Origin: a virus
Strand: one strand, 5' to 3'
Length of the DNA stretch: 55,266 bases
IMG/VR virus record: IMGVR_UViG_3300030106_007887
Coordinates: 1-55,266 of that record
The notes beneath the pieces were generated by a model, which was given only the letters and a program-made list of their open reading frames with translations, was not told where the DNA came from and did not search any database. Both the position numbers and the translations under genes were made by a program. This document shows positions 1,993 through 53,208 of this stretch, in pieces (position 1 is the first letter of the stretch; every line of letters starts with the position of its first letter).

Positions 1993-2592
1993 CTAGTTGG
2001 CTAGAAGCTGGCTTAATAGATCAGCTGTTTGCGGAATGGATAGAGCAGTACGTCCATCTTCTAGAAAAACCCGAAAACAATCAAAATAACGAAAATCAGC
2101 TGTGTTTGCATATAGATTCTCAGGAATAAGTCCCTCTATCTTGAAATGTTTTCTCACAGGATCGTGCATAAAAGGAGGACGATACCAACGAAAAGCCTTA
2201 CGCTTAGTATCTAAAATCCACTCTGGATGATGTTTATGCCAGCGACTCCAGGCATGGAACTGTCGATCTGGATCCCCGGATGTGCAATCTAATTCAATAA
2301 AATCACCTGGCTGAATTACCCAACGTAAACGTAAAACTTCTTGAAATCCTCGACGGATCGCTTTCATTCCAACTTTACCCGTGAAATGATTTTTTATAGA
2401 TCGTTTCCGTTTATTAGATCGATCATTCCACCAATCATTTAACTGACGACGAGACTTACCAACAGCAAAACCAACCTTCCAAAAATAGTGGCCGTCCTCA
2501 TATTTGTACTCAGGAGCAACACAAACTTTACAAAGTTGATCCTCGACATAAAATGTAGAACTTGTAAACTTGCGGCGTACTCGATAAGTCAT
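1993..2592 (-). CDS. Hypothetical basic, Trp/Arg-rich protein (199 aa)
   Basis: This 199-residue protein has an Arg/Lys/Trp-rich centre (KSRRQLNDWWNDR, residues about 46-58) and several aromatic clusters, suggesting nucleic-acid contact, but no family is recognised. There are two Cys near the N-terminus (QLCKVCV) that could bind metal or pair. The ATG start lies one base from the start of the divergent plus-strand gene, so any promoter must sit inside that neighbour. A long antisense frame across its 3' end is treated as a shadow. Confidence 0.75.
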   Translation of the reverse strand: MTYRVRRKFTSSTFYVEDQLCKVCVAPEYKYEDGHYFWKVGFAVGKSRRQLNDWWNDRSNKRKRSIKNHFTGKVGMKAIRRGFQEVLRLRWVIQPGDFIELDCTSGDPDRQFHAWSRWHKHHPEWILDTKRKAFRWYRPPFMHDPVRKHFKIEGLIPENLYANTADFRYFDCFRVFLEDGRTALSIPQTADLLSQLLAN

Positions 2593-2593
2593 C

Positions 2594-2878
2594 GTGGAAG
2601 AACTACTAAAGCTAATTCAATCAGATCCTCAGCTCTGGGAAATAGTTGAACAACTAAAACACCAAGACGAAGAACCTGCTGATTTTTTTCTCAATGTAGC
2701 AAACATGCTAGCAGTCGAATTTGAAGAATTGCATAGAACAGATTTAAGCGACAAGCTCGCAGCTCTGTTCGGGGGTCTACCAGAACCAGCATTCAAAATG
2801 GTCCCACTTCTTATTCATATCGCATTAGACATCTTTCTAATGAGAGCCATACCCAATTCCGACGCAATAAAAGATTGA
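2594..2878 (+). CDS. Hypothetical acidic helical protein (94 aa)
   Basis: The protein starts at GTG, one base after the start codon of the divergent gene. It is acidic in its first half (EELLKLIQSDPQLWEIVEQL) and ends in a hydrophobic stretch (FKMVPLLIHIALDIFLM, about 71-87) that may be a buried helix or a membrane-associated segment. No family is recognised. It opens the tightly spaced run leading to the DNA polymerase, so a replication-linked role is possible by position only. Confidence 0.65.
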   Translation: MEELLKLIQSDPQLWEIVEQLKHQDEEPADFFLNVANMLAVEFEELHRTDLSDKLAALFGGLPEPAFKMVPLLIHIALDIFLMRAIPNSDAIKD

Positions 2879-2881
2879 GCC

Positions 2882-3115
2882 ATGCAAAGCGGATTCGTAT
2901 TATGTGACCCTGATAATAAAAAAGTACTGTGCATTTCAGGGGATAAAACACGTGTAGAACTTGTCGACATTAACAAAACAAACAACCTAAATAAAGCGCT
3001 CTGCTTGCCAGACCTAACATCGGTTAAGAATATCTACGAACGATTCAAAAAACTAGATTTAGTTGAAGAACTTGATATAGTAAACATCGCAAGATTATAT
3101 AAAAACCGCTACTAA
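2882..3115 (+). CDS. Hypothetical protein upstream of DNA polymerase (77 aa)
   Basis: A 77-residue protein beginning MQSGFVLCDPDNKKVLCISG, with a short beta-rich N-terminus and a Leu/Lys-rich helical second half. It lies three bases after the previous gene and three bases before the DNA polymerase, so the three are probably one transcript. No family is recognised. Confidence 0.7.
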   Translation: MQSGFVLCDPDNKKVLCISGDKTRVELVDINKTNNLNKALCLPDLTSVKNIYERFKKLDLVEELDIVNIARLYKNRY

Positions 3116-3118
3116 TAC

Positions 3119-4948
3119 ATGCCAAAATACGTATTTGACTGCGAGACCAATGGTCTAGTTCATGAATTAGACACAGTTCACTGCTTAGTACTTCGTGATA
3201 TAGAAACTGGAGACGTCATCAGCTGTGCAGATCAAAAAGGATATGAACCAATATGCAACGGTATTCATTTATTAATGCATGCAGACGTACTAATCGGACA
3301 CAACATAATAAATTTTGACTTCAGAGCCCTACGAAAAGTTTACTCAGACTTCAAAAAGAAAAAGAACTGCGAGCTCATCGATACACTTATTCTCAGTCGT
3401 GTCCTATGGCCAGAGTTAGAGCCAATCGATGAGCAAAAATTCTCACACATTAATCCTAAAAACAGGGGAAGACATTCTCTAGGAGCATGGGGAGACCGGT
3501 TAAATGTTAATAAAACCAGCCTCTCAAACGAGGGCGAAAATAAATGGGATACATGGTCAGAAGAAATGCAAAAGTACTGCGAAAACGATACCCTAGTCTC
3601 ATCAGAACTCTACAAATACTTCCAATCTCAAAAATTAGACCTAAGATGCCAAGAATTAGAACATTCCTTCGCAATTATCATGACATTACAGGAGAGCTTC
3701 GGCTTTCCTTTTAATGAAAAAGCTGCATATGCTCTAGTTAATACCTTAAAAACCCGACGCACTGAAATTGATGATGAATTACAAAAAGTCTTCCCACCAA
3801 TCACAGAAGAAAGGATTTCTCTTAAAACCGGTAAACGACTTAAAGACAAAGTCACTACGTTTAACCCCGCTTCACGTAAACAAACTGCCGATCGGTTACG
3901 AGAACATTATCCTGAGATTAGATTCAGTAAAACCGAAAAAGGAAACGTTAAACTTGATGACGATGTCTTGGAACTTCTGGGTAAAAAGTATCCAGAAGCT
4001 GCTCTCTTAGCTGAATATCAATTACTTAATAAAAGGTTAGGACAGATATCTGAAGGAAAAGAAGCTTGGTTAAAACACAGTCAAAAATATAAAGACAGTA
4101 AAATTCATGGCTCAGTAATAACAAATGCCTGTGTAAGTGGAAGGTGCAGCCATCGAAGTCCTAACATGGCACAAATACCACGAGTAGGTCATCAGTTTGG
4201 AGCTGAATGTCGTGCACTTTTCTATGCCCCTAATGGATGGTTACTAATAGGGGCTGATGCCAGTGGTCTAGAACTACGTGGACTTGGTGCTCAATTGGCG
4301 TACTTTGATGGTGGAGAATATGCAAAATTAGTTAGTACTGAAGGCTTTGATATTCACACCCATAATGCAAAATTATTCGGAATATTTGATGGGAAAGGAA
4401 CTATTGATAAAAAAACAAGAGAACTGGCAAAAACTTTAATTTATGCTGTACTTTATGGCGCAGGTGCCAAGAAATTAGGGACAATACTAGATGTTTCATT
4501 AGACGAATACAAACAACAAGAACTAGGACGAGAAACTATTAATACGTTCTACAAAAACCTACCAGCAATCAAACAGTTAAAAGATAAAGTCGATGAACGT
4601 GTCCTACAACGTGGCTACCTCACGGGTATAGATGGTCGACATTTACAAATAAGATCGAGACATTCTGCGCTAAATCAACTACTTCAATCTACTGGCGCAA
4701 TTGCAGTCAAAAAAGCAACATGCATCCTATATGAAGATTTACACAAAAATGGACTAAAATGGTCTTGCCACTTTGCCTTCGTAGCACATATCCATGACGA
4801 GATCCAAGCACTCGTTAAGCCACAATTCGAAGAACTCTATAAAAACTTAGCAATCGATTCATTTCGAAAAGCCGGTGAGTTCTATAACCTAAAATGTCCT
4901 TTAACCGGTGAAGCTAAGGAAGGTAAAAACTGGATGGAGACTCACTAA
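3119..4948 (+). CDS. Family A DNA polymerase with 3'-5' exonuclease (T7-like)
   Basis: This 609-residue enzyme copies the phage genome. The N-terminal DnaQ-type proofreading domain (1-170) has Exo I FDCETNG (Asp7, Glu9), Exo II HNIINFDF (Asp67) and Exo III YCENDT (Asp157). The polymerase domain (about 180-609) has motif A GADASGLELRG (Asp380), motif B RELAKTLIYAVLYGAG (Arg434, Lys438, Tyr442) and motif C HIHDEI (Asp560, Glu561). The arrangement matches T7 gp5, about 95 residues longer. Tyr442 occupies the position of E. coli Pol I Phe762 and T7 Tyr526, a state associated with lytic phages in published surveys. All catalytic residues are present. It heads the replication block that also supplies SSB and primase-helicase. 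Confidence 0.97.
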   Translation: MPKYVFDCETNGLVHELDTVHCLVLRDIETGDVISCADQKGYEPICNGIHLLMHADVLIGHNIINFDFRALRKVYSDFKKKKNCELIDTLILSRVLWPELEPIDEQKFSHINPKNRGRHSLGAWGDRLNVNKTSLSNEGENKWDTWSEEMQKYCENDTLVSSELYKYFQSQKLDLRCQELEHSFAIIMTLQESFGFPFNEKAAYALVNTLKTRRTEIDDELQKVFPPITEERISLKTGKRLKDKVTTFNPASRKQTADRLREHYPEIRFSKTEKGNVKLDDDVLELLGKKYPEAALLAEYQLLNKRLGQISEGKEAWLKHSQKYKDSKIHGSVITNACVSGRCSHRSPNMAQIPRVGHQFGAECRALFYAPNGWLLIGADASGLELRGLGAQLAYFDGGEYAKLVSTEGFDIHTHNAKLFGIFDGKGTIDKKTRELAKTLIYAVLYGAGAKKLGTILDVSLDEYKQQELGRETINTFYKNLPAIKQLKDKVDERVLQRGYLTGIDGRHLQIRSRHSALNQLLQSTGAIAVKKATCILYEDLHKNGLKWSCHFAFVAHIHDEIQALVKPQFEELYKNLAIDSFRKAGEFYNLKCPLTGEAKEGKNWMETH

Positions 4949-5131
4949 ATGATAAACAAGAAGCAATACCAAATCAAAGCACGATGGTATTACATTTTCT
5001 GGTCAATTATGTCAGCTTCCGTAGTAGCTGGACAAATCTATGTTGGAACTGGCTATAGAGAAATGTCAGAAACGATTAAACAGGCTGTAATTCGTTTTGA
5101 TCATCCTTTAAGCGTTCCACACAAACGTTGA
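4949..5131 (+). CDS. Small single-pass membrane protein (60 aa)
   Basis: The ATG follows the polymerase stop codon directly. Residues about 12-32 (RWYYIFWSIMSASVVAGQIY) form one hydrophobic segment, with a basic N-terminus that predicts the inside-positive end in the cytoplasm. The aromatic WYYIFW start followed by a VGTGYRE segment is reminiscent of small membrane proteins seen in other cyanophages (from memory). Function is unknown. Its last 56 bases overlap an antisense Cys-rich microprotein. Confidence 0.75.
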   Translation: MINKKQYQIKARWYYIFWSIMSASVVAGQIYVGTGYREMSETIKQAVIRFDHPLSVPHKR

Positions 5132-5616: not shown

Positions 5617-5868
5617 TTACTGAGCCAAATAATTAAATAACTGCTGTCGAGTTTCAGATGGAAGAGGCTCTGCGAAATTCCCCATTACAGGATTAAAGCC
5701 ACGATTAGGCATAACAGCGGACTCACCTATATCAAAAGTCACTTCTTTAGTAATAGGATCAACTAAAACTTGAGGAACACCAACTACTTGATGATATGAA
5801 CTTGCGACATCAGCTGCCCTAGCCCATTTCTCTAATTGACCTGGATATGCGACCTGAAGACTTGACAT
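5617..5868 (-). CDS. Hypothetical protein (83 aa), possibly virion-associated
   Basis: An 83-residue protein with a helical start (AYPGQLEKWARAADVASSYH) and a Pro/Asn-rich second half. No family is recognised. It is the downstream partner of the repeat-bearing 137-residue gene, 18 bases apart, and both lie on the late strand, which suggests a late or virion role by position. Confidence 0.65.
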   Translation of the reverse strand: MSSLQVAYPGQLEKWARAADVASSYHQVVGVPQVLVDPITKEVTFDIGESAVMPNRGFNPVMGNFAEPLPSETRQQLFNYLAQ

Positions 5869-5886
5869 AAGTTCACCTTATATATT

Positions 5887-6300
5887 TTAAAAGGGAAGTT
5901 GACCCCAATTAGGATCACCTACCTGAGGCATGGGTACAGAGTTTGATTTCCCATCCACAAAAAACCCAGGATCATATTTAGCTCCCCAATTAGGATCACC
6001 TACCTGAGGCATGGGTGCTGGCATATCAGGTCTATGGCCTGGGAGAGGCTCAAGCTGACCAGTCAACGGATTCTCCCACCTTGGAATCTCACCCATAAAC
6101 CCAGCCATAGAATCACTATCTCGTGCAACAAGAGAACCTTGAGAAAGCCATGGATGTTGAGGCCTCCAGTTGGGTCCTAAGATCTCATCAAACTTAGGTC
6201 TTAAAGCTCTGCCTCTATTAACAGCATCCTGTTGCTCAGGACTTAAAGGGTCGCCAGGAAGCATTATATCTAATGTAGCTACTACGTCAGGATGCAACAT
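5887..6300 (-). CDS. Proline-rich protein with PMPQVGDPNWG repeats (137 aa)
   Basis: The first 45 residues are helical and acidic; the rest is rich in Pro, Gly and Trp and probably disordered. The 11-residue element PMPQVGDPNWG occurs twice (about 96-106 and 123-133), from a matching direct repeat in the DNA (about 5902-5933 and 5982-6013). The final residues GQLPF are hydrophobic. No family is recognised. The composition resembles the other small late-strand proteins at 8549-9652 and 43940-44251. Confidence 0.7.
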   Translation of the reverse strand: MLHPDVVATLDIMLPGDPLSPEQQDAVNRGRALRPKFDEILGPNWRPQHPWLSQGSLVARDSDSMAGFMGEIPRWENPLTGQLEPLPGHRPDMPAPMPQVGDPNWGAKYDPGFFVDGKSNSVPMPQVGDPNWGQLPF

Positions 6301-8985: not shown

Positions 8986-9363
8986 TTAAAATGGCATATT
9001 GTCTCTCCATTCCATACCTTTGCCACCCGGATGGAATCCAAACTCTCTAGGATCTCCTCTCCATTCCATACCTTTGCCACCCGGATGGAATCCAAACTCT
9101 CTAGGATCTTTCGCAGCAGGAGATAACAACCGACCACTTGCCCATTCCAAACCTTTGCCGCTCGGATGGAATCCCCATGCTCTGGGATCTCCTTTTCGTC
9201 TCTCCTCTAATGCAGCCATTTGTCTCTCTCTCATCTCCAGAGCTGCTTGTGGACCCCTCGTCAAATTCGGACGCTCCCTTAACTCTCTTTCTTCAGGAAT
9301 AAAATAAAAAGACTCTCCAGCAAATCTTGGTTGATTTTCTGACCATCTAGTAACTTCCATCAT
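8986..9363 (-). CDS. Protein with three FGFHPGGKGMEW repeats (125 aa)
   Basis: The first 60 residues are Arg/Glu-rich and helical (ERELRERPNLTRGP). The C-terminal half holds three copies of an element of the form DPRxxGFHPxGKGxEW (about 59-74, 86-101, 104-119), the last two 18 residues apart. No known repeat family is recognised. The His/Lys/Trp-rich, Gly/Pro-broken units are likely extended and may bind a partner or nucleic acid. It ends two bases before the preferred start of the next gene on the strand. Confidence 0.7.
   Translation of the reverse strand: MMEVTRWSENQPRFAGESFYFIPEERELRERPNLTRGPQAALEMRERQMAALEERRKGDPRAWGFHPSGKGLEWASGRLLSPAAKDPREFGFHPGGKGMEWRGDPREFGFHPGGKGMEWRDNMPF
9003..9110. 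repeat. Tandem 54-bp direct repeat in coding DNA
   Basis: Two near-identical 54-base units (about 9003-9056 and 9057-9110) share CCATTCCATACCTTTGCCAC and downstream sequence. A third, more diverged copy lies near 9144-9190. They encode the protein repeats of the overlapping minus-strand gene. The near-perfect DNA identity points to recent tandem duplication or strong conservation. Confidence 0.85.
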
Positions 9364-9397
9364 CAGATCCCATATCTATTTAAAAGGTGTGTTAGGT

Positions 9398-9652
9398 TTA
9401 CCAGGCTTTGCGATTTGGGTGTCTCGGATCCCTGAAGGCAGTATCTCCACCACGGTATGGCGGAGCTGGCCACGTTTCCGGTGATAGCCAAGGATCATCT
9501 CCAGCGAATCTTGGAGGTGCACCATAAGGTCGTGGACCTAGATCTTCTCTCATTTTCTGTGCGTCCTTCGTCATGCTTTCTGAGGAGAAGGGCATTATCG
9601 AATCTAGACTTTCTATCTCCCTTTTCGACATCTTCCTAGATCGAGCTCCCAT
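9398..9652 (-). CDS. Hypothetical small protein with PRFAGDDPW motif (84 aa)
   Basis: An 84-residue protein with a basic helical start (GARSRKMSKREIESLDS) and a Pro/Trp/Gly-rich second half (PPRFAGDDPWLSPETWP). It shares the short PRFAG phrase with its two neighbours. No family is recognised; a late structural role is inferred from strand and composition. Confidence 0.65.
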   Translation of the reverse strand: MGARSRKMSKREIESLDSIMPFSSESMTKDAQKMREDLGPRPYGAPPRFAGDDPWLSPETWPAPPYRGGDTAFRDPRHPNRKAW

Positions 9653-9712
9653 AACTCCTTACCAAAACAATATTAAACTAGTATTCTAAAAGATATCCTC
9701 CTAAGACTGAAG

Positions 9713-9841
9713 ATGGCACAAGAAACAATGCTTTATTTCATTATGACAAGACTCCTATTCATCGCCATTGGAGCAGGTCTAGCAGCAACTATCGTTGGAA
9801 TTATAGGTCTAGCTTTACAGAGTACAATAGAAAATGAGTGA
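9713..9841 (+). CDS. Single-pass membrane microprotein (42 aa)
   Basis: The frame encodes 42 residues dominated by one hydrophobic helix (RLLFIAIGAGLAATIVGIIG, about 13-32). The stop overlaps the ATG of the next gene by eight bases, indicating translational coupling. Function is unknown. Confidence 0.6.
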   Translation: MAQETMLYFIMTRLLFIAIGAGLAATIVGIIGLALQSTIENE

Positions 9842-10097
9842 CTATCTCTTTGATGACAATCATTTATTTGAGCCCGTGAAAGAAGAATTATCAGAAAGCG
9901 CCATAAAAACATTAAAAAATAAAGGTTACATTTGGGATCCTCATGAAAGTTGGTGGGTACGAGTTTGGACTGCCAATGAAGGAAAAGAAAAAATCCTAGA
10001 ATGCTATAGCCGAAATGGAAAGAATCAATGGTCAAAAGTAATGGTCAGTGAAAAAGGTTATATTTTCTATGAAGAAACCGTTGACAACTTAGAATGA
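9834..10097 (+). CDS. Hypothetical Trp-rich small protein (87 aa)
   Basis: An 87-residue protein with an acidic start (DYLFDDNHLFEPVKEEL) and a compact aromatic core (GYIWDPHESWWVRVWTANEG). It resembles a small beta-domain, but no family is recognised. Its end overlaps the end of a convergent minus-strand microprotein by 31 bases. Confidence 0.7.
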   Translation: MSDYLFDDNHLFEPVKEELSESAIKTLKNKGYIWDPHESWWVRVWTANEGKEKILECYSRNGKNQWSKVMVSEKGYIFYEETVDNLE

Positions 10098-10204
10098 GCC
10101 TTATCAGCTTTAATAATCAACTTCTGCGCCTCTTCTCGAGTTAAACATTGTTCGGCCTTCACTGCAAATTTCAATAACTTTTTATGTTGCTTTTTCTCGT
10201 TCAT
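10067..10204 (-). CDS. Hypothetical Lys-rich microprotein (45 aa)
   Basis: A 45-residue, basic, helical protein (MNEKKQHKKLLKFAVKAE, then CLTREEAQKLIIKADKAH). Its ATG overlaps the stop codon of the gene upstream on the strand by four bases (ATGA), which supports it as real and coupled. No family is recognised. Confidence 0.6.
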   Translation of the reverse strand: MNEKKQHKKLLKFAVKAEQCLTREEAQKLIIKADKAHSKLSTVSS

Positions 10205-10458
10205 TCCTGACGCTGTGTTTTAGTAATCTCATGTGTTTCAAATTGTGCCAATCGTTTAGCTAAGCCACGAATAACGACCTGTCGATGTATACAGATTTTT
10301 AATAGATTCATAGCACCTTGACGCAGCTGCTCAATATCTTCAGCATTCTCAATCTCTTTCGAAACTGCTGTCAAAGTAAACTCATCTTCTAACGTTGGGT
10401 CAAAATCAATAGGATCAAATGATACTTCCACTAATCGAAAAGAAGACATAAGAAACAC
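10201..10458 (-). CDS. Hypothetical acidic helical protein (85 aa)
   Basis: An 85-residue protein with an acidic first half (PIDFDPTLEDEFTLTAVSKE) and a helical second half with basic residues. A later ATG (residue 4, MSSFRLVEV) is an equally good start. It forms a two-gene coupled pair with the Lys-rich microprotein downstream. No family is recognised. Confidence 0.65.
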   Translation of the reverse strand: MFLMSSFRLVEVSFDPIDFDPTLEDEFTLTAVSKEIENAEDIEQLRQGAMNLLKICIHRQVVIRGLAKRLAQFETHEITKTQRQE

Positions 10459-37820: not shown

Positions 37821-38252
37821 ATGAAACAGCTATTAACGCTGTTATTTTTTATATTTATACCTAAAGCTTCAGCAATCCCGGTGGTGCCTAATTTCACCCA
37901 AGGAAGTATGACATCCCATACAGAGACAACGTCCAAAGTGACTGAGACGATAAACTCAATGGATTACGCAACTGGATGGCAGTATACTGTAACTGGCACA
38001 AATGTTGATCACTCAGGATCAACTATTTCACCTACATCAACAACTGGTAATACCAATACTCTGCAAGGTGTCACAACAACATGGTCGGGCTTGGATCTAT
38101 CAAACAAACCAGATTGGAACATAGTAGTTCCTGGCAACAGTTTTCAATTTACAGAATCATATCAAGCTCCAGGTTTAGTCAATCAAACAATAATCCAACG
38201 AGAAACAGAAATAAGAAGCGTCACCGATACAACCTCTGTCTTCTCCAACTAA
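37821..38252 (+). CDS. Secreted beta protein related to the previous gene (143 aa)
   Basis: A signal peptide is clear (MKQLLTLLFFIFIPKASAIP, cleavage after ASA at about 18). The mature protein is Thr/Ser-rich (TTWSGLDLSNKPDWNIVVPG, FQFTESYQAPGL) and shares the FxFxES motif with the previous gene. It starts eight bases after the previous stop. The last 170 bases overlap, in another frame, the open frame of the third secreted protein. Confidence 0.7.
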   Translation: MKQLLTLLFFIFIPKASAIPVVPNFTQGSMTSHTETTSKVTETINSMDYATGWQYTVTGTNVDHSGSTISPTSTTGNTNTLQGVTTTWSGLDLSNKPDWNIVVPGNSFQFTESYQAPGLVNQTIIQRETEIRSVTDTTSVFSN

Positions 38253-39097
38253 AATATCTTTTTATAACACTTTTAAATACAATAATATTTACACCAACAA
38301 CTGTTTTGGCAGCTGATGTTGGAGGAGTATCAGCGACTGCAAATCCAGTTGCAAACTCCTCAGGAAGCGTTACTAATCAAGCTATACAAGTTCTACAAGG
38401 TCCATATATAACTAATACTTATGGAGATGGAATCAGTTGTCAGGGTCCTACCCTCAATATCACGCCATTCTTAGCTGATAGTAAATCTTGGCAGATTCCT
38501 AAGGAGGAATATTATGATCAACCTGTCTACGACATGACAACTGATGATGATGGGAACTTACAAAATCCAGGAGATATTCTTTATTACGTACCTACTAGAA
38601 CTGGTCAAAAAGATACGTTTAATTTTAACTGGGGAATATCAGCAACTGTATCTGTCCCATTAGATGAAAAATTACAAGATCAATGTAAACAATCTGCAAA
38701 TAGTCAAATAGCCTACAGAAATCAGTTAGTAGCAAATAAAAGATTAGATTTTGAATTAGCCAGGCTTAAAAATTGTGGGAACTTAATGAAAGAAGGAATT
38801 CGATTCCATCCGAAATCACAATATGCAGCTATCTGTGCAGATGTAATGCTGACACCTATCCCTGGGAAAGTTACACCTCATACACACTCTATTTCCGCAT
38901 TGCCCGCCGAAGCTCCATCACTGCCCGATTCCGAGATCTCTGAGCAAGAATCCGCTCCCTCAAAGAAAGTTCCTTCGGCTCCTTCCCAAGGATTTTTTGG
39001 ATTTTTCCGATCACTTTTTTCACGGCAGGCTTCACAACCTTTAGAAGAAGATCAGCCAGAGGCTTTGCTAGGAGGGCCGATGTCGTTGCCACAGTAG
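38081..39097 (+). CDS. Secreted cyanophage-family protein; true start uncertain (up to 338 aa)
   Basis: From ATG 38081 the frame has 57 polar residues, then a signal-type helix (KYLFITLLNTIIFTPTTVLA, about 58-77) followed by ADVGGVSATANPV, NTYGDGISCQGPTLNITPFL and GDILYYVPTRTGQKD. The family is remembered from other cyanophages, where it begins directly with the signal peptide. No ATG/GTG/TTG in frame lies close before the helix, so the start may be an atypical codon, a frameshift from the preceding gene (which ends 38252, one base out of phase), or ATG 38081. The last 70 residues extend antisense into the neighbouring minus-strand gene. Confidence 0.65.
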   Translation: MVGLGSIKQTRLEHSSSWQQFSIYRIISSSRFSQSNNNPTRNRNKKRHRYNLCLLQLKYLFITLLNTIIFTPTTVLAADVGGVSATANPVANSSGSVTNQAIQVLQGPYITNTYGDGISCQGPTLNITPFLADSKSWQIPKEEYYDQPVYDMTTDDDGNLQNPGDILYYVPTRTGQKDTFNFNWGISATVSVPLDEKLQDQCKQSANSQIAYRNQLVANKRLDFELARLKNCGNLMKEGIRFHPKSQYAAICADVMLTPIPGKVTPHTHSISALPAEAPSLPDSEISEQESAPSKKVPSAPSQGFFGFFRSLFSRQASQPLEEDQPEALLGGPMSLPQ

Positions 39098-46662: not shown

Positions 46663-46670
46663 ACCTCCTT
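46663..46670 (-). promoter_or_regulatory. Strong Shine-Dalgarno overlapping the capsid stop codon
   Basis: The minus strand reads AAGGAGGT, a full anti-16S match, nine bases before the ATG at 46653 and overlapping the major capsid stop codon. Most other genes in this window lack such a clear site, so it marks high-level, coupled translation of the second capsid-region protein. Confidence 0.85.
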
Positions 46671-47814
46671 ACTCAGTTACAGTGAAAGCTGTAGTGATGA
46701 AGTCCTTGTTCAAGTTCGCAAAGCCAGCATAAAGCTGCCAAATGAGAATTATGAAACGGCTGAAGTCATCATTATTGTTAATAAGAACTTGAGCGTTTGG
46801 ACCACCAATACCTACACCGATTGCCTGAGGGCCAAAGAATAGACCTGCAGGAGTGGTTTTAGAAGCGGCACCGTTACCATCACCAATATCGACTGTTATG
46901 GTTTTGGCTGGGAAGTTAGTGGATTCGAAGAATCTCACACCTTCAAACACGAAGCCTGCGGGCATAACGGGCTCACCACCTACGAATTGTGCCTGACCGA
47001 ATTGGCCGCCACCGTAGATAGATGCGTTAGGAGCCATGGCACCCATAAGAGGGTTAGGCTGCCCCATGCCAGGGTAACGTGCAACTTCACGGAAGCCTTG
47101 ATCGGCACGCAGATCCTTCATCAATGAAGGGTCAGCAATACACCGATAATAGCCGTCTGTGAAGACTGGTACGTGACGCTTTCTAAGACTCTTAACTACT
47201 TCTAAAAGGTCAGTTTTTACGTTGAACTTAAAGCGCTCAGAAGCATATTCTGTAGCGGTATAAGCGGTAAGAGTTGTTGAGTTTGTCTTAGCCTTATTGT
47301 TTGGATAGTAGTAACCACCCTGAGAATCAGAGGACTGACCACGGGATTCAGTCTTAAATAGCTCATCAAGGAAGACACGGTCACGCCAACGACGATAATC
47401 GTCGAGCAATGTCAGCGAACCAATCGACTGATGGAACATATTAAGGTTCCCAGTATCGAGCAGTAGACGCTGAGCGGTCATTAAGGTCTCACGAGCAATC
47501 TTAAATGTGCTTGGGAGATTTGTGTTATTAGGGTCAGCAGGACCTGTATATTCACGAAGAGATACAAGTACTTTGTCCTTAACGATAGACCTGCTGTTAG
47601 CTGTACCGATGGTTTGATCCTGAGTACGCTCACGGCTTGTCTTCGTGCCAGGGTTACCGAAGAAGCGGTAACGATCTAGCTGAACAGTTTGACCCGGTTG
47701 CTTAGTGAAGTCGTGGACAACAACTGGCTCTGCAGCCATCTCCACGATGTAAGCTGGATGAGGGCGGTATAACTCCGCACCCAGCAGCTTCGGGAAATCG
47801 TTATCAATAAACAT
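46669..47814 (-). CDS. Major capsid protein, N4 gp56-like type (381 aa)
   Basis: Size, position after a scaffold-like gene, and motifs support the main capsid subunit. The N-terminal arm (about 1-55) is followed by a long helix region, then DGYYRCIADPSLMKDLRADQ, REVARYPGMGQPNP and GVRFFESTNFPAKT, which fit the N4-gp56-type HK97-fold family. The C-terminus (IILIWQLYAGFANLNKDFIT) is helical. The subunits would form the icosahedral shell. No internal protease domain is seen, so head maturation, if any, uses another protein. Very likely one of the most expressed genes. Confidence 0.88.
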   Translation of the reverse strand: MFIDNDFPKLLGAELYRPHPAYIVEMAAEPVVVHDFTKQPGQTVQLDRYRFFGNPGTKTSRERTQDQTIGTANSRSIVKDKVLVSLREYTGPADPNNTNLPSTFKIARETLMTAQRLLLDTGNLNMFHQSIGSLTLLDDYRRWRDRVFLDELFKTESRGQSSDSQGGYYYPNNKAKTNSTTLTAYTATEYASERFKFNVKTDLLEVVKSLRKRHVPVFTDGYYRCIADPSLMKDLRADQGFREVARYPGMGQPNPLMGAMAPNASIYGGGQFGQAQFVGGEPVMPAGFVFEGVRFFESTNFPAKTITVDIGDGNGAASKTTPAGLFFGPQAIGVGIGGPNAQVLINNNDDFSRFIILIWQLYAGFANLNKDFITTAFTVTE

Positions 47815-48673: not shown

Positions 48674-49717
48674 TTATTCCATCACTAGGAGCTTCTGACG
48701 GAAGATATCAGGGCTCTGCTGTGCAGCATTCAGATAGCGCCATGCATTCTGAGGATCTCTGTCAGCTGCACTACCGAAGTTGTTCCAGAAGTCAGTTGGA
48801 TTAGCGCGTCTCTGAGGCTGTGGAGGAACAGGCATCTGAGGACGACTTGGAGCAGTAACGTTAGGCTGTCCAGTAACGTTAGGCTGTCCAGTAACGGTAG
48901 GCTGATTTGCAACTCTAGGAGCTGGAGCACCTTGAGGGGCAGCCGCTCTTGCCTGAGCTGTAGGAACAGGATAAGGGCCTTTAGGTCCAAAGAATGCACA
49001 AGTGTAGTCAGCGAGAATATCTGGATCAGTCAGCATACGCTCGTAAATTTTGTGCTCCTTAGAAAGCTCACCGAGAAGTCCAGCTGCTTCATTAAGCTTT
49101 GAATTGGTCGCGATAACAGCGTCTTCTAACTGACAAGAATAGTTATTAAGAATTGCAGAGGTGTTTGGACCGAAACGATCAATAACGTGAATACTCTCAG
49201 GACTAACGCCGTTTGCGAGCAACTGGTCGGTTGTTATCTCCTGTTGCGAAATTCGGGAAGAGTTGCTGTAAGATCCCTGGTTGCTGTTGATCCCAGGCGT
49301 ATAGGTCTGAGCTGCCTGGTTGACGTATGGGGTCGTTTGTTGGGAACTGTAGCTGGCCGGGTCTATTCCTTGTGTCTGAGGAGACTGTTGACCCTGGAAC
49401 GGGAATTGGACTGGTGAACTCAGGAGGCCCACCACCTTGTTGAACGCTTCCTTGTAAGGACTCTCTTGTTGTTGGGGTGCCTGGGACACCTGGGGATACG
49501 ATACTGTAGGGGTTGATTGATAACCCTGGACGCCCATCTGGGCTTGCACTTGGGGCGCCGGTGCCGCCATCGGCTGGGAGGCTGCCACCCATTGGGGAGA
49601 TGTTCCCACTACCGGTGCTTGCGCTGCGGTTTGCGCTACCGGAGCCGCGTAGCTGGTCGGCTGGGTCTGGGATACTTGGGGTGCCGATTGGGTCGGCGCT
49701 ACGGTAGCGTCCTGCAT
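48674..49717 (-). CDS. Scaffold-like head assembly protein with N-terminus overlapping portal (347 aa)
   Basis: The first 165 residues are Gln/Pro/Ala/Ser-rich and disordered (QSAPQVSQTQPTSYAAPVAQ). Residues about 165-240 are helical (DQLLANGVSPESIHVIDRFG, LNEAAGLLGELSKEHKIYER). The C-terminal part has TGQPNVTGQPNV repeats and ends with a charged helix. Placement between portal and capsid and the helical-disordered layout fit a scaffold or internal assembly protein. A Shine-Dalgarno (AGAGGT) precedes the ATG at 49717. The first 515 bases are also read in another frame by the portal gene. Confidence 0.75.
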   Translation of the reverse strand: MQDATVAPTQSAPQVSQTQPTSYAAPVAQTAAQAPVVGTSPQWVAASQPMAAPAPQVQAQMGVQGYQSTPTVSYPQVSQAPQQQESPYKEAFNKVVGLLSSPVQFPFQGQQSPQTQGIDPASYSSQQTTPYVNQAAQTYTPGINSNQGSYSNSSRISQQEITTDQLLANGVSPESIHVIDRFGPNTSAILNNYSCQLEDAVIATNSKLNEAAGLLGELSKEHKIYERMLTDPDILADYTCAFFGPKGPYPVPTAQARAAAPQGAPAPRVANQPTVTGQPNVTGQPNVTAPSRPQMPVPPQPQRRANPTDFWNNFGSAADRDPQNAWRYLNAAQQSPDIFRQKLLVME

Positions 49718-51455
49718 AAGTTACCTCTTTTTGTAAGCTCTCGAGTGTTCGGTATAAGAAAGGAGTGAGATCAAGTCTCGGGTCCGCAGCCATCGGTAAA
49801 TTCGGTTGCTGTGGATGTGGCGTTCTCATTTCCATATTGACTAAGTCAATGAGACTTGAGAAAGCCCTTTGCACTTCTCCAACTATTCTGAACGGATAAC
49901 CGGAGAGCATTCCCGCGATTTCTTCGTCAGTTTTAGAAGGAAATAAGTACTTCAGTGCTTCTATACTATCAACACCCAATTCTTGTAGGTTTCTACAGAA
50001 CATAGATTGGTTTAATTTATCTTGTGCAGTGTCTTCATAAACTGGCCCCATCCATCTCCATGTAACAGTTCTATCACCATCAGGAGCTAGTCCTACTACA
50101 CCTGGAGGTAATTCTTTAAGTTCAATCGCCTCATCAATTGCGACTTGTAATTTCTTTTCATAACGAGCTTTCTGTTTTATATATTTTTCATATTCAACTT
50201 CATCGTCAGGATCCTCAGGAGGTATTGGATATTTTATTCCGGAGTTATAGGCTAAAGACTTACGGAAGATCTGTTCTTCCTGGAAAATCATTAACTCAAA
50301 GCACTTACAAATACCATATGTATAAAGCTGTAAACACTTCTTCTTAGCTGTAGCACTAACTCGACCGTAAGCAGATTTAATCTCTGTTGCAGTTACATTA
50401 GTAATACTTAAATCATCAATACCACCTAAAGCAAGTCTTATCTCACTTCTCAGCTGCTCTGAATAACGAGCCTGATCTGTACTTACTGCATTAGGAGTAA
50501 TAAAACCGACACGATCTGTAGGTTCAAGATTCGCAATAACACGAGGAACACGATAACCACTACCTGGTTTTCCTATATAACCAGGCTGATTACGAGATGA
50601 TGGATCTTGTTTAAAAGTAGAACTAGAAAGACTAAACTCAGATTGGAAACCAGATTGACTTGAAATGCTAGGACGTTGAGCTGTATCATCTGAATTCTGC
50701 TCAATAATATCTTGTTTTGGTCGAGAAGAAAGTAAAGTTGGATTTCCAAAGAACGATAAATTTGCTCTAATATTTTTTACCATCTCATCATGAGCAATTA
50801 TCTGAGTAGATAACCATTCAAATTCACCAGCCCCGTCAGTACCAAATGCATCAGGATTATTAAAAACTTCTACACATGGAATAAACTCCATGGTGTTGTC
50901 ATAAACTTCTTTGTCGTAAGTAGTGAAATCAGTATTTTCATTGTCAAATGATATCTCTTGCTCACTATGAAACTCTTCAATTTCTTGTGGAGTTATACGC
51001 AATCGCATATACCGCTTATCAGTATTTAACCCAACACCTTTAAACCCTTTAGAAGACTTAACCTTATAAGGATAAATAATAACTACTTCTTCTAAATCAC
51101 CCTCTGGAGTATAGTAAGTGCGATAAGCATCTTTATCAAACCAGTAAAGACGATAAGTTTTTTGTGTCGGACGAATATAAAAAAGACCTTTTCCATAAGC
51201 TAAAAAACGATCCCATATCGAATCGAGTCTGGCATCTAATTTATTAAATTTTATAACTTGTTGAATAAAATCAAACCTTTGAGATCCAAAATTATCTTGT
51301 TCTGGATAAAACTCAACACCCTGACGTATCCCAAACATTTTCATCTGGGACAGATGAGCATTAATCAACATTGTGTCAGCTGACCCAGACCCATCGCGGT
51401 TGACTACCGCTTTAAGAAGTTCGTCAAGCTCAGACTTAGTAGTGCTATCGCTCAT
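49203..51455 (-). CDS. Portal protein with long disordered C-terminal tail (750 aa)
   Basis: The portal ring lets DNA in and out of the head. Residues about 30-560 are the folded part: RQGVEFYPEQDNFGSQRFDF, IWDRFLAYGKGLFYIRPTQK, IAHDEMVKNIRANLSFFGNP and a helical LRSEIRLALGGIDDLSI with a TATEIKSAYGR segment typical of phage portals. Residues about 579-750 are Pro/Ser/Gly-rich and disordered, ending with basic ARKRR; this tail is encoded by DNA shared with the scaffold-like gene. Size is large for a portal because of the tail. It lies downstream of TerL as usual. Confidence 0.88.
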   Translation of the reverse strand: MSDSTTKSELDELLKAVVNRDGSGSADTMLINAHLSQMKMFGIRQGVEFYPEQDNFGSQRFDFIQQVIKFNKLDARLDSIWDRFLAYGKGLFYIRPTQKTYRLYWFDKDAYRTYYTPEGDLEEVVIIYPYKVKSSKGFKGVGLNTDKRYMRLRITPQEIEEFHSEQEISFDNENTDFTTYDKEVYDNTMEFIPCVEVFNNPDAFGTDGAGEFEWLSTQIIAHDEMVKNIRANLSFFGNPTLLSSRPKQDIIEQNSDDTAQRPSISSQSGFQSEFSLSSSTFKQDPSSRNQPGYIGKPGSGYRVPRVIANLEPTDRVGFITPNAVSTDQARYSEQLRSEIRLALGGIDDLSITNVTATEIKSAYGRVSATAKKKCLQLYTYGICKCFELMIFQEEQIFRKSLAYNSGIKYPIPPEDPDDEVEYEKYIKQKARYEKKLQVAIDEAIELKELPPGVVGLAPDGDRTVTWRWMGPVYEDTAQDKLNQSMFCRNLQELGVDSIEALKYLFPSKTDEEIAGMLSGYPFRIVGEVQRAFSSLIDLVNMEMRTPHPQQPNLPMAADPRLDLTPFLYRTLESLQKEVTYAGRYRSADPIGTPSIPDPADQLRGSGSANRSASTGSGNISPMGGSLPADGGTGAPSASPDGRPGLSINPYSIVSPGVPGTPTTRESLQGSVQQGGGPPEFTSPIPVPGSTVSSDTRNRPGQLQFPTNDPIRQPGSSDLYAWDQQQPGILQQLFPNFATGDNNRPVARKRR
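49723..49728 (-). promoter_or_regulatory. Shine-Dalgarno deciding the scaffold-like start inside the portal gene
   Basis: The minus strand reads AGAGGT five bases before the ATG at 49717, inside the portal coding region. It supports use of this start rather than a later one, and therefore true dual coding of 49203-49717. Confidence 0.7.
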
Positions 51456-51684: not shown

Positions 51685-53208
51685 TCAATACTCTAACTCT
51701 AGTTTTCCTTTAGACATTAGTCCATTACATAGCCATACCAGAGCATCTACACAATCATCATGAGAACTAACTCCAAAATTTATTATCTCATCTGTTAATG
51801 GGCCAAATTTACGATACTTATTAAAAACAATTCTGCGCTGTTCAAATAAACCCATAATTCCCCTAAAACGGGCAACTTTATCCCCTCGAAATCCCTTAAC
51901 AGCATGCCAAATTAAATTATAAAGACCATGTTCACCCTGGCATATCCGTTTAAAATCAGCTTCTAATGAAGCTTGATAAGCAACGGCTTCCGACCAGATA
52001 TGAACAGCGTTTCCTGTTGCGAAATAGTTTTTATTATCGTGATGAATAACTCCCCACTCCTCCATCATTTCCATAAGACTCTCTAGTTTCTCTAAATTAC
52101 CCATAATCCGAAGTCGTTTACAATCAATAATATGAACTTTATTGCCGATGCGACCACCCATTACAAAAACTGTATAATCATTCTGTTCTCTAACACCAGC
52201 AGACAAATCAACTCCAACTCCCATAGCATCAAACTGTGTTGAGATCGCTCCTTTAACAATCAGATCAGGTGAAATAGATAATTCACTAGTCTGAACAATC
52301 TGATTCTGATACTGAAAACTAAAGGCAATTGGAGCTTGTCTTCTCCGATCACGAAGATAGTCCAAAGACCACATATCTGGCCAATAAGATATTTCCTCCC
52401 CTTGTTTATCAACTGTAATAGCAGATTGAATAATCTGCACCCAATCATTTGCAGGAGTAAAAGTGCTGTTATGAATATCATCGTGGCGGAAGCGAGTTCC
52501 GAGACAAACTGCTCTACCGCCTTCAAACATCGTTGGAACAATGACCGCATTCCAGTTATCCTCCATTGCTTGACGAATATCCCTATTCTTTATATCATCT
52601 GCACTTTTGATCGCATCATCAATAATACATAAATGAGATCGTTTTGAAGTAACAGCGCCTTTTAAACCCGCACAACAAACACTGAATTCTTCTTCACCTG
52701 TAGATCTAATTCCAGCAAATTTCCAATCAATACTCCAGTATTCATTAGAATTAATGCCTTTAGCAATTTTTACTGTAGGAAAAATTTCTCTATAAATTTT
52801 ATTCTCATCAATAATTCTCTTAATTGCGGCACTCTTTGGTCGTGCAACATCAACAGTATATGAAATATATAAAATCTTCAACGGCATCCTACGTAACGCA
52901 TGAACACCAATTGACCAAGCTGTAAATAAACCAAGTACTGTTGACTTTGCCGAACCACGTGGAGCCAAAATATCTATATTTGGACCAGCAATACCAATTA
53001 AGCAGGAGCTACTCTCCCCTGTACATAAATACTTATGCCACTGTATATGATGCTCAGCAGGAGGTTTATTACCAACTACATCACAGAAATATGCAAAGTC
53101 TTCACGAGCCCTCTCAATGTCAACAAAAGAGGTTTTTTTAACTACTTGCTGTTTAGCAGCAGCCCGTGCAGTACGTCGATAGACGCTATAAATACTTGTG
53201 CCTGCCAT
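51685..53208 (-). CDS. Terminase large subunit
   Basis: The motor that packages DNA into the head. The ATPase has Walker A APRGSAKST (82-90, Lys88), an adenine/coupling region (KILYISYTVDVAR) and Walker B LCIIDDA (193-199, Asp197/Asp198). The nuclease part starts near residue 340 with GVGVDLSAGVREQNDYT (first active-site Asp) and ends with SSHDDCVDALVWL carrying further acidic residues. Length of 507 residues fits. It lies 24 bases after the small-subunit candidate and drives assembly with the portal downstream. Confidence 0.96.
   Translation of the reverse strand: MAGTSIYSVYRRTARAAAKQQVVKKTSFVDIERAREDFAYFCDVVGNKPPAEHHIQWHKYLCTGESSSCLIGIAGPNIDILAPRGSAKSTVLGLFTAWSIGVHALRRMPLKILYISYTVDVARPKSAAIKRIIDENKIYREIFPTVKIAKGINSNEYWSIDWKFAGIRSTGEEEFSVCCAGLKGAVTSKRSHLCIIDDAIKSADDIKNRDIRQAMEDNWNAVIVPTMFEGGRAVCLGTRFRHDDIHNSTFTPANDWVQIIQSAITVDKQGEEISYWPDMWSLDYLRDRRRQAPIAFSFQYQNQIVQTSELSISPDLIVKGAISTQFDAMGVGVDLSAGVREQNDYTVFVMGGRIGNKVHIIDCKRLRIMGNLEKLESLMEMMEEWGVIHHDNKNYFATGNAVHIWSEAVAYQASLEADFKRICQGEHGLYNLIWHAVKGFRGDKVARFRGIMGLFEQRRIVFNKYRKFGPLTDEIINFGVSSHDDCVDALVWLCNGLMSKGKLELEY

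Follow-up and report, generated by a model that had tools for sequence, protein, structure and literature searches.

The window analysed in this study, a virus record of 55,266 bases with its head-gene block on the minus strand, holds a true same-strand overlap in the +1 phase between two head-assembly genes, and we place the probability of this model as a whole at about 0.85. The preliminary description of this DNA had proposed that two disordered protein tails, those of a portal protein and of a scaffold-like protein, are encoded by the same bases; the relatives supported such dual coding, as no intact one had lost it and selection acted on each of the two frames.

Gene order and geometry of the overlap

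The head-gene block comprised the following features:

51685-53208, minus strand: terminase large subunit (TerL) gene, 1524 nt, upstream of the portal gene
Between the terminase large subunit and portal genes, minus strand: 60-aa ORF (ORF call)
49203..51455, minus strand: portal protein gene, 750 aa, with core residues 1-579 unshared and tail residues 580-750 in the overlap
49203..49717, minus strand: putative dual-coding overlap, 515 nt common to the portal gene and the 347-aa ORF, phase +1
48674..49717, minus strand: scaffold-like protein gene, 347 aa, in the +1 frame of the portal gene
Between the 347-aa gene and the major capsid gene, minus strand: 133-aa and 61-aa ORFs (ORF calls)
46669-47814, minus strand: major capsid protein (MCP) gene, downstream of the portal gene

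The order terminase, portal and head genes was that of tailed phages. Identity to Synechococcus phage S-EIV1, the only named record matching both the portal and the capsid protein of the window, was 64% for the terminase, 52% for the portal and 69.5% for the MCP. Judged by these homologous proteins, the window virus belongs with the S-EIV1-like cyanophages. The terminase ORF of S-EIV1 (L082, locus 2529-5069) is annotated at 2541 nt, against 1524 nt in the window, and matched the window terminase in two pieces, possibly reflecting an intein or other insertion.

The portal protein matched PHROG 20475, a virion structural family, with an E-value of 1.7e-211, and weakly matched the portal family PHROG 64. 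A Foldseek search of its predicted model, itself weak (pLDDT 46), against the PDB returned phage portals as nearly all top matches, the SaPI1/80alpha portals at an E-value of 2.9e-6. Identification of the 750-aa protein as a tailed-phage portal, made earlier from the letters of the DNA, was thus supported by predicted fold and by weak PHROG 64 homology.

The ORF coordinates gave exactly 515 shared nucleotides in the +1 phase, as first described, and a recount reproduced the reported GC contents of 65.0% (49561-49620), 68.3% (49621-49680) and 33.3% (50161-50220); the complete overlap was 58.3% GC, against 39.6% for the window. Predicted models also agreed with the claim that both tails are disordered, as pLDDT was below 50 for portal residues 519-750 and for most of residues 1-155 of the scaffold-like protein, with the exception of a single helix at 87-99. 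When synonymous portal codons were resampled in the window sequence alone, the +1 frame stayed open in 14-30% of trials, because the Pro/Gly/Ser tail rarely creates +1 stops. A single window sequence is accordingly weak proof of dual coding, and a chance open frame is excluded by the relatives; the significance of the overlap rests on them. Elsewhere in the window, two same-strand ORFs (37821-38252 and 38081-39097, plus strand) share 172 nt, which may be a start-codon artefact.

Conservation of the overlap among relatives

Three sets of relatives were assembled. The first held the 80 nearest window-like loci in IMG/VR plus S-EIV1, and the second, from a search centred on S-EIV1, held 80 further loci. 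The third was sampled with the DNA pattern that encodes the portal motif MAADPRLDLTP and not by similarity rank. Behind every complete portal gene of the first set, the same ORF was present with the same ATG, and overlaps in the second set measured 545-635 nt. Across all sets, 209 of 210 distinct sequences had an ATG in the same place, exactly 76 nt past the MAADPRLDLTP motif, and a +1 frame open beyond the portal stop; the third set was picked by the exact coding pattern just upstream, so that this set covers portals with that pattern. The overlap had a median length of 542 nt and ranged from 500 to 677 nt in intact relatives, L176 and L207 being left out.

The sole failure among the 210 was L176, which carried frameshifts in both genes. 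In L207 the overlap was 329 nt, and a change around 3500 broke both genes. A further locus, L165, contained a partial repeat within the portal around 5700-6050. All three are probably assembly or sequencing faults or damaged copies. A frame broken in close relatives, which had been named as evidence that would count against dual coding, was found only in the damaged-looking L176 and L207.

The family fell into two groups, between which portals were about 54% identical and the scaffold-like proteins about 43%. Since the overlap was present in both portal groups, it predates their split, and by sequence comparison it is kept across a widespread S-EIV1-related cyanophage family. A search for an outgroup outside the two portal groups found none. 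In codon usage, the portal tail was nominally nearer to background than the N-terminus of the scaffold-like protein, both values being near zero and linked to position.

S-EIV1 (KJ410740) carries a homologous overlap of 554 nt, with the same relative start as in the window and the Shine-Dalgarno sequence AAAGGAG. The overlap is unannotated in its record, and the second gene really spans 59287-60264 (325 codons); the annotated product AHV82225.1 (59863-60264) represents only the last 133 of them. The MCP ORF of S-EIV1 (L082, KJ410740.1, locus 9308-10432; about 60859-61983 of the record, plus strand) is also unannotated, its place in the record being covered by a minus-strand hypothetical protein, AHV82227.1.

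Selection on both reading frames

Selection was assessed within groups on 45 disjoint sequence pairs, through divergence at silent sites and through a count of the four change classes of overlapping-gene dN/dS methods in our own simplified implementation. In the class names (dNN, dNS, dSN and dSS), the first letter refers to the portal and the second to the scaffold. Aligning relatives to look for synonymous constraint in both frames had been suggested at the outset, and purifying selection was found on each.

Divergence at fourfold sites of the portal frame was 39.1% in the core and 6.4% in the overlap, the overlap being lower in all 45 pairs; background values were 39-45% for the terminase and most neighbours and 26% for the major capsid protein. 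In the scaffold frame, fourfold divergence was 34.7% in the unique part and 15.2% in the overlap (lower in 42 of 45 pairs), and the synonymous rate rose across the portal stop, from about 0.11 immediately ahead of it to 0.32 directly behind it. Within the overlap, rates were 0.050 (dNN), 0.160 (dNS), 0.096 (dSN) and 0.426 (dSS). The scaffold frame gave a dNN/dNS of 0.31 [0.25-0.38] and a dSN/dSS of 0.22 there, against 0.92 and 0.88 for the same ratios in the portal core. For the portal tail, dNN/dSN was 0.48 [0.41-0.55] in one group and 0.65 [0.50-0.77] in the other (pair-bootstrap intervals, all below 1). By pair, dNN was below dNS in 45 of 45 and below dSN in 38 of 45. These sequence-based ratios indicated purifying selection on each of the tails, and it was stronger on that of the scaffold. 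Complementary conservation of the two frames was considered and rejected, as per-site conservation was positively correlated (r 0.43).

Initiation of the second gene and competing explanations

The sequence around the inner start, AAAAAGAGGTAACTTATG, contained the Shine-Dalgarno site that had been described five bases 5' of the inner ATG:

49723..49728, minus strand: Shine-Dalgarno AGAGGT, 5 nt ahead of the inner ATG (49715-49717); AAAGGAG in the S-EIV1 group
49721..49723, minus strand: scaffold-frame TAA, one codon ahead of the inner ATG

Both groups had a Shine-Dalgarno sequence and ATG ahead of the second gene, formed by different bases (AAAGAGGTAACTTATG and AAAGGAGATGAGTTATG). An in-frame stop was found at the place of the TAA in 141 of 147 pairs, and the sequence from stop to start differed between the groups (TAA CTT ATG in one, TGA GTT ATG in the other). 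The inner start lay where the folded core of the portal ends (residue 580). By this model, ribosomes on the portal message would read on to the portal stop, and others would initiate at the inner Shine-Dalgarno sequence and ATG and read the +1 frame to yield the second protein, which is most likely to be the capsid scaffold. We infer that both proteins are made. The MCP-like codon usage of its unshared part suggests that the 347-aa product would be made in excess of the portal.

It is very improbable that the start was mispredicted, with the downstream gene beginning after the portal stop and the open +1 frame arising by chance. In one survey, 715 long co-directional overlaps in prokaryotes were inspected manually and every one was judged to be an error (PMC2478687); the GenBank entry AHV82225.1 starts after the portal stop in S-EIV1, and the resampling result agrees with a frame open by chance in the window. 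Against this, the ATG and the open frame were kept in 209 of the 210 distinct relatives, purifying selection ran along the whole scaffold frame of the overlap, the Shine-Dalgarno sequence was conserved with the stop just ahead of the ATG in 141 of 147, and the annotated S-EIV1 start would cut into a conserved region for which a long helix is predicted in the window protein. A start further downstream had been named as a finding that would undo the initial claim; in the sequence test, synonymous divergence instead dropped at the inner ribosome-binding site and ATG, and the scaffold-frame rate jumped at the portal stop.

Just as little probability attaches to the overlap being conserved as a DNA or RNA element that encodes no second protein. 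The adjoining upstream segment, in which no second frame is open, was also low in synonymous change, as such an element would predict. However, doubly silent sites in the overlap diverged at 0.43, against 0.10 at sites silent in the portal and changing the scaffold, so the DNA of the overlap itself is not frozen. Codon-position divergence in the overlap (0.05/0.09/0.15) followed the scaffold frame, and the +2 frame (NN/NS 2.57) gave no such pattern. The same strand, the +1 frame and the long common stretch would also suit ribosomal frameshifting into the second frame, producing a portal-scaffold fusion, but we regard this as highly unlikely. In 141 of 147 pairs a stop closes the scaffold frame one codon ahead of the inner ATG, so that a frameshift further upstream cannot produce a fusion at that place. 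Together with the good Shine-Dalgarno sequence ahead of the inner ATG, this stop argues, at the sequence level, for separate initiation rather than a frameshift fusion across the start. A frameshift within the overlap, rather than upstream of the ATG, could still occur.

Identity of the second protein

The 347-aa protein had no family match in PHROG or Pfam, none in the PDB and no fold match; with no scaffold family or fold match, it is called scaffold-like and not filed in any scaffold family. In its predicted model, which was weak (pLDDT 60, pTM 0.29), the N-terminus was disordered apart from one conserved helix, long helices occupied residues 163-243, and the C-terminus formed a small helical region. 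Relative synonymous codon usage in its unique part correlated at 0.87-0.89 with that of the MCP, the portal and terminase using another codon set. Each tail carried one short conserved motif:

49388..49462, minus strand: conserved scaffold-frame motif SPYKEAFNKVVGLLSSPVQFPFQGQ, residues 86-110, holding the predicted helix 87-99
49251..49307, minus strand: conserved portal-frame motif DLYAWDQQQPGILQQLFPN, residues 717-735, near the C-terminus

The 347-aa product is probably the capsid scaffold, as its position, shape and probable abundance fit. The first description had already given it this identity, which is plausible from the position between portal and MCP, the predicted disorder and helices and the codon usage, and which lacks a family match. 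It is possible, though we think it doubtful, that dual coding is real and the 347-aa protein is something else, e.g., an abundant internal head, decoration or tail-adaptor protein. That it matched no scaffold in sequence or in fold favors this, as do the 61-aa and 133-aa ORFs that also sit between the 347-aa gene and the major capsid gene. The canonical place of the 347-aa gene, between those for the portal and the major capsid protein, speaks for the scaffold, as do the modelled disordered N-terminus, long helices and small C-terminal helical region, and the MCP-like codon usage.

In the procapsid, the C-termini of portals normally point towards the scaffold core. If the second protein is the scaffold, the short conserved motifs (scaffold 86-110, portal 717-735) would bind inside the procapsid. 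To explain the co-encoding by an interaction between portal and scaffold is speculation.

Reduced synonymous change ahead of the inner start

The reduction in synonymous change began within the unshared portal core:

49719..50018, minus strand: constrained portal-core segment, candidate cis-acting element, residues 480-579, about 300 nt, with low synonymous divergence
49951..49973, minus strand: near-invariant block GTTGATAGYATWGAAGCACTGAA, residues 495-501, single copy in the window

Unexpectedly, synonymous divergence in this segment, which the preliminary description had not noted, was reduced 2.5-fold in both groups, and codon choice there was aberrant. Near residue 485-495, about 270-300 nt ahead of the inner ATG, fourfold divergence in the portal frame dropped to about 0.17 from a level of about 0.45, in each group independently. 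In the block at residues 495-501, fourfold divergence was 0.01, and the codons GTT, GAT, GCA and CTG were fixed in 147 of 147 sequences across both groups. Codon usage in the segment differed from both the portal set and the capsid set.

A further ORF was rejected, as no second sense or antisense frame was open across relatives, and so was an in-frame internal portal start near residue 490, where no start codon was conserved. Conserved RNA structure was likewise set aside; its signals were weak and strand-ambiguous, and the two groups shared few base pairs. An inverted repeat found in many relatives was imperfect in the window, and searches of the segment gave no Rfam match and no sigma-70-like promoter site. 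The segment is probably a cis-acting element, and may serve the scaffold-capsid unit as a promoter or leader; it would probably carry a signal raising expression of that unit. On a tentative reading, which we consider less likely than not, the final third of the portal gene could be a compact module that combines portal coding, a cis element (including the near-invariant block at 49951-49973) driving the scaffold-capsid unit and a second gene of roughly 500-680 nt; the same DNA would then encode two interacting tails of the procapsid core, and these would co-evolve.

Comparison with known systems and significance

Genes that overlap out of frame are a familiar arrangement, and there are scaffold genes that lie nested within other genes. 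In phiX174 (Microviridae), the scaffolding gene B lies out of frame inside gene A and has its own start. The window pair resembles this arrangement in its out-of-frame scaffold-like gene with an internal start. However, phiX174 is a small ssDNA phage in which B lies wholly inside a replication gene, whereas the window pair is a terminal overlap with the portal gene in a tailed dsDNA phage (the S-EIV1 genome is 79 kb). In lambda, the Nu3 scaffold is nested in the protease gene C, with an internal start in the same frame as C. Nu3 is similar in that a scaffold is started inside an upstream head gene; the window pair is out of frame, giving an unrelated protein sequence. A literature search found no report of an out-of-frame overlap of portal and scaffold, most subscription papers lying outside the search.

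Overlaps in the +1 phase in viruses have a median length of 14 nt (IQR 8-26; PMC8903798). The window pair is likewise a same-strand +1 overlap, but one of 500-677 nt in intact relatives. An overlap of about 500-680 nt between structural genes of a tailed dsDNA phage, with selection tests that show dual coding, is relevant because in prokaryotes long overlaps between different frames are routinely written off as mistakes of annotation (PMC2478687). The finding corrects the annotation of S-EIV1, where about half of the second protein is missing, and provides many independent sequence pairs for the study of dual-frame evolution. It also raises the question of contact between the two co-encoded tails in the procapsid.
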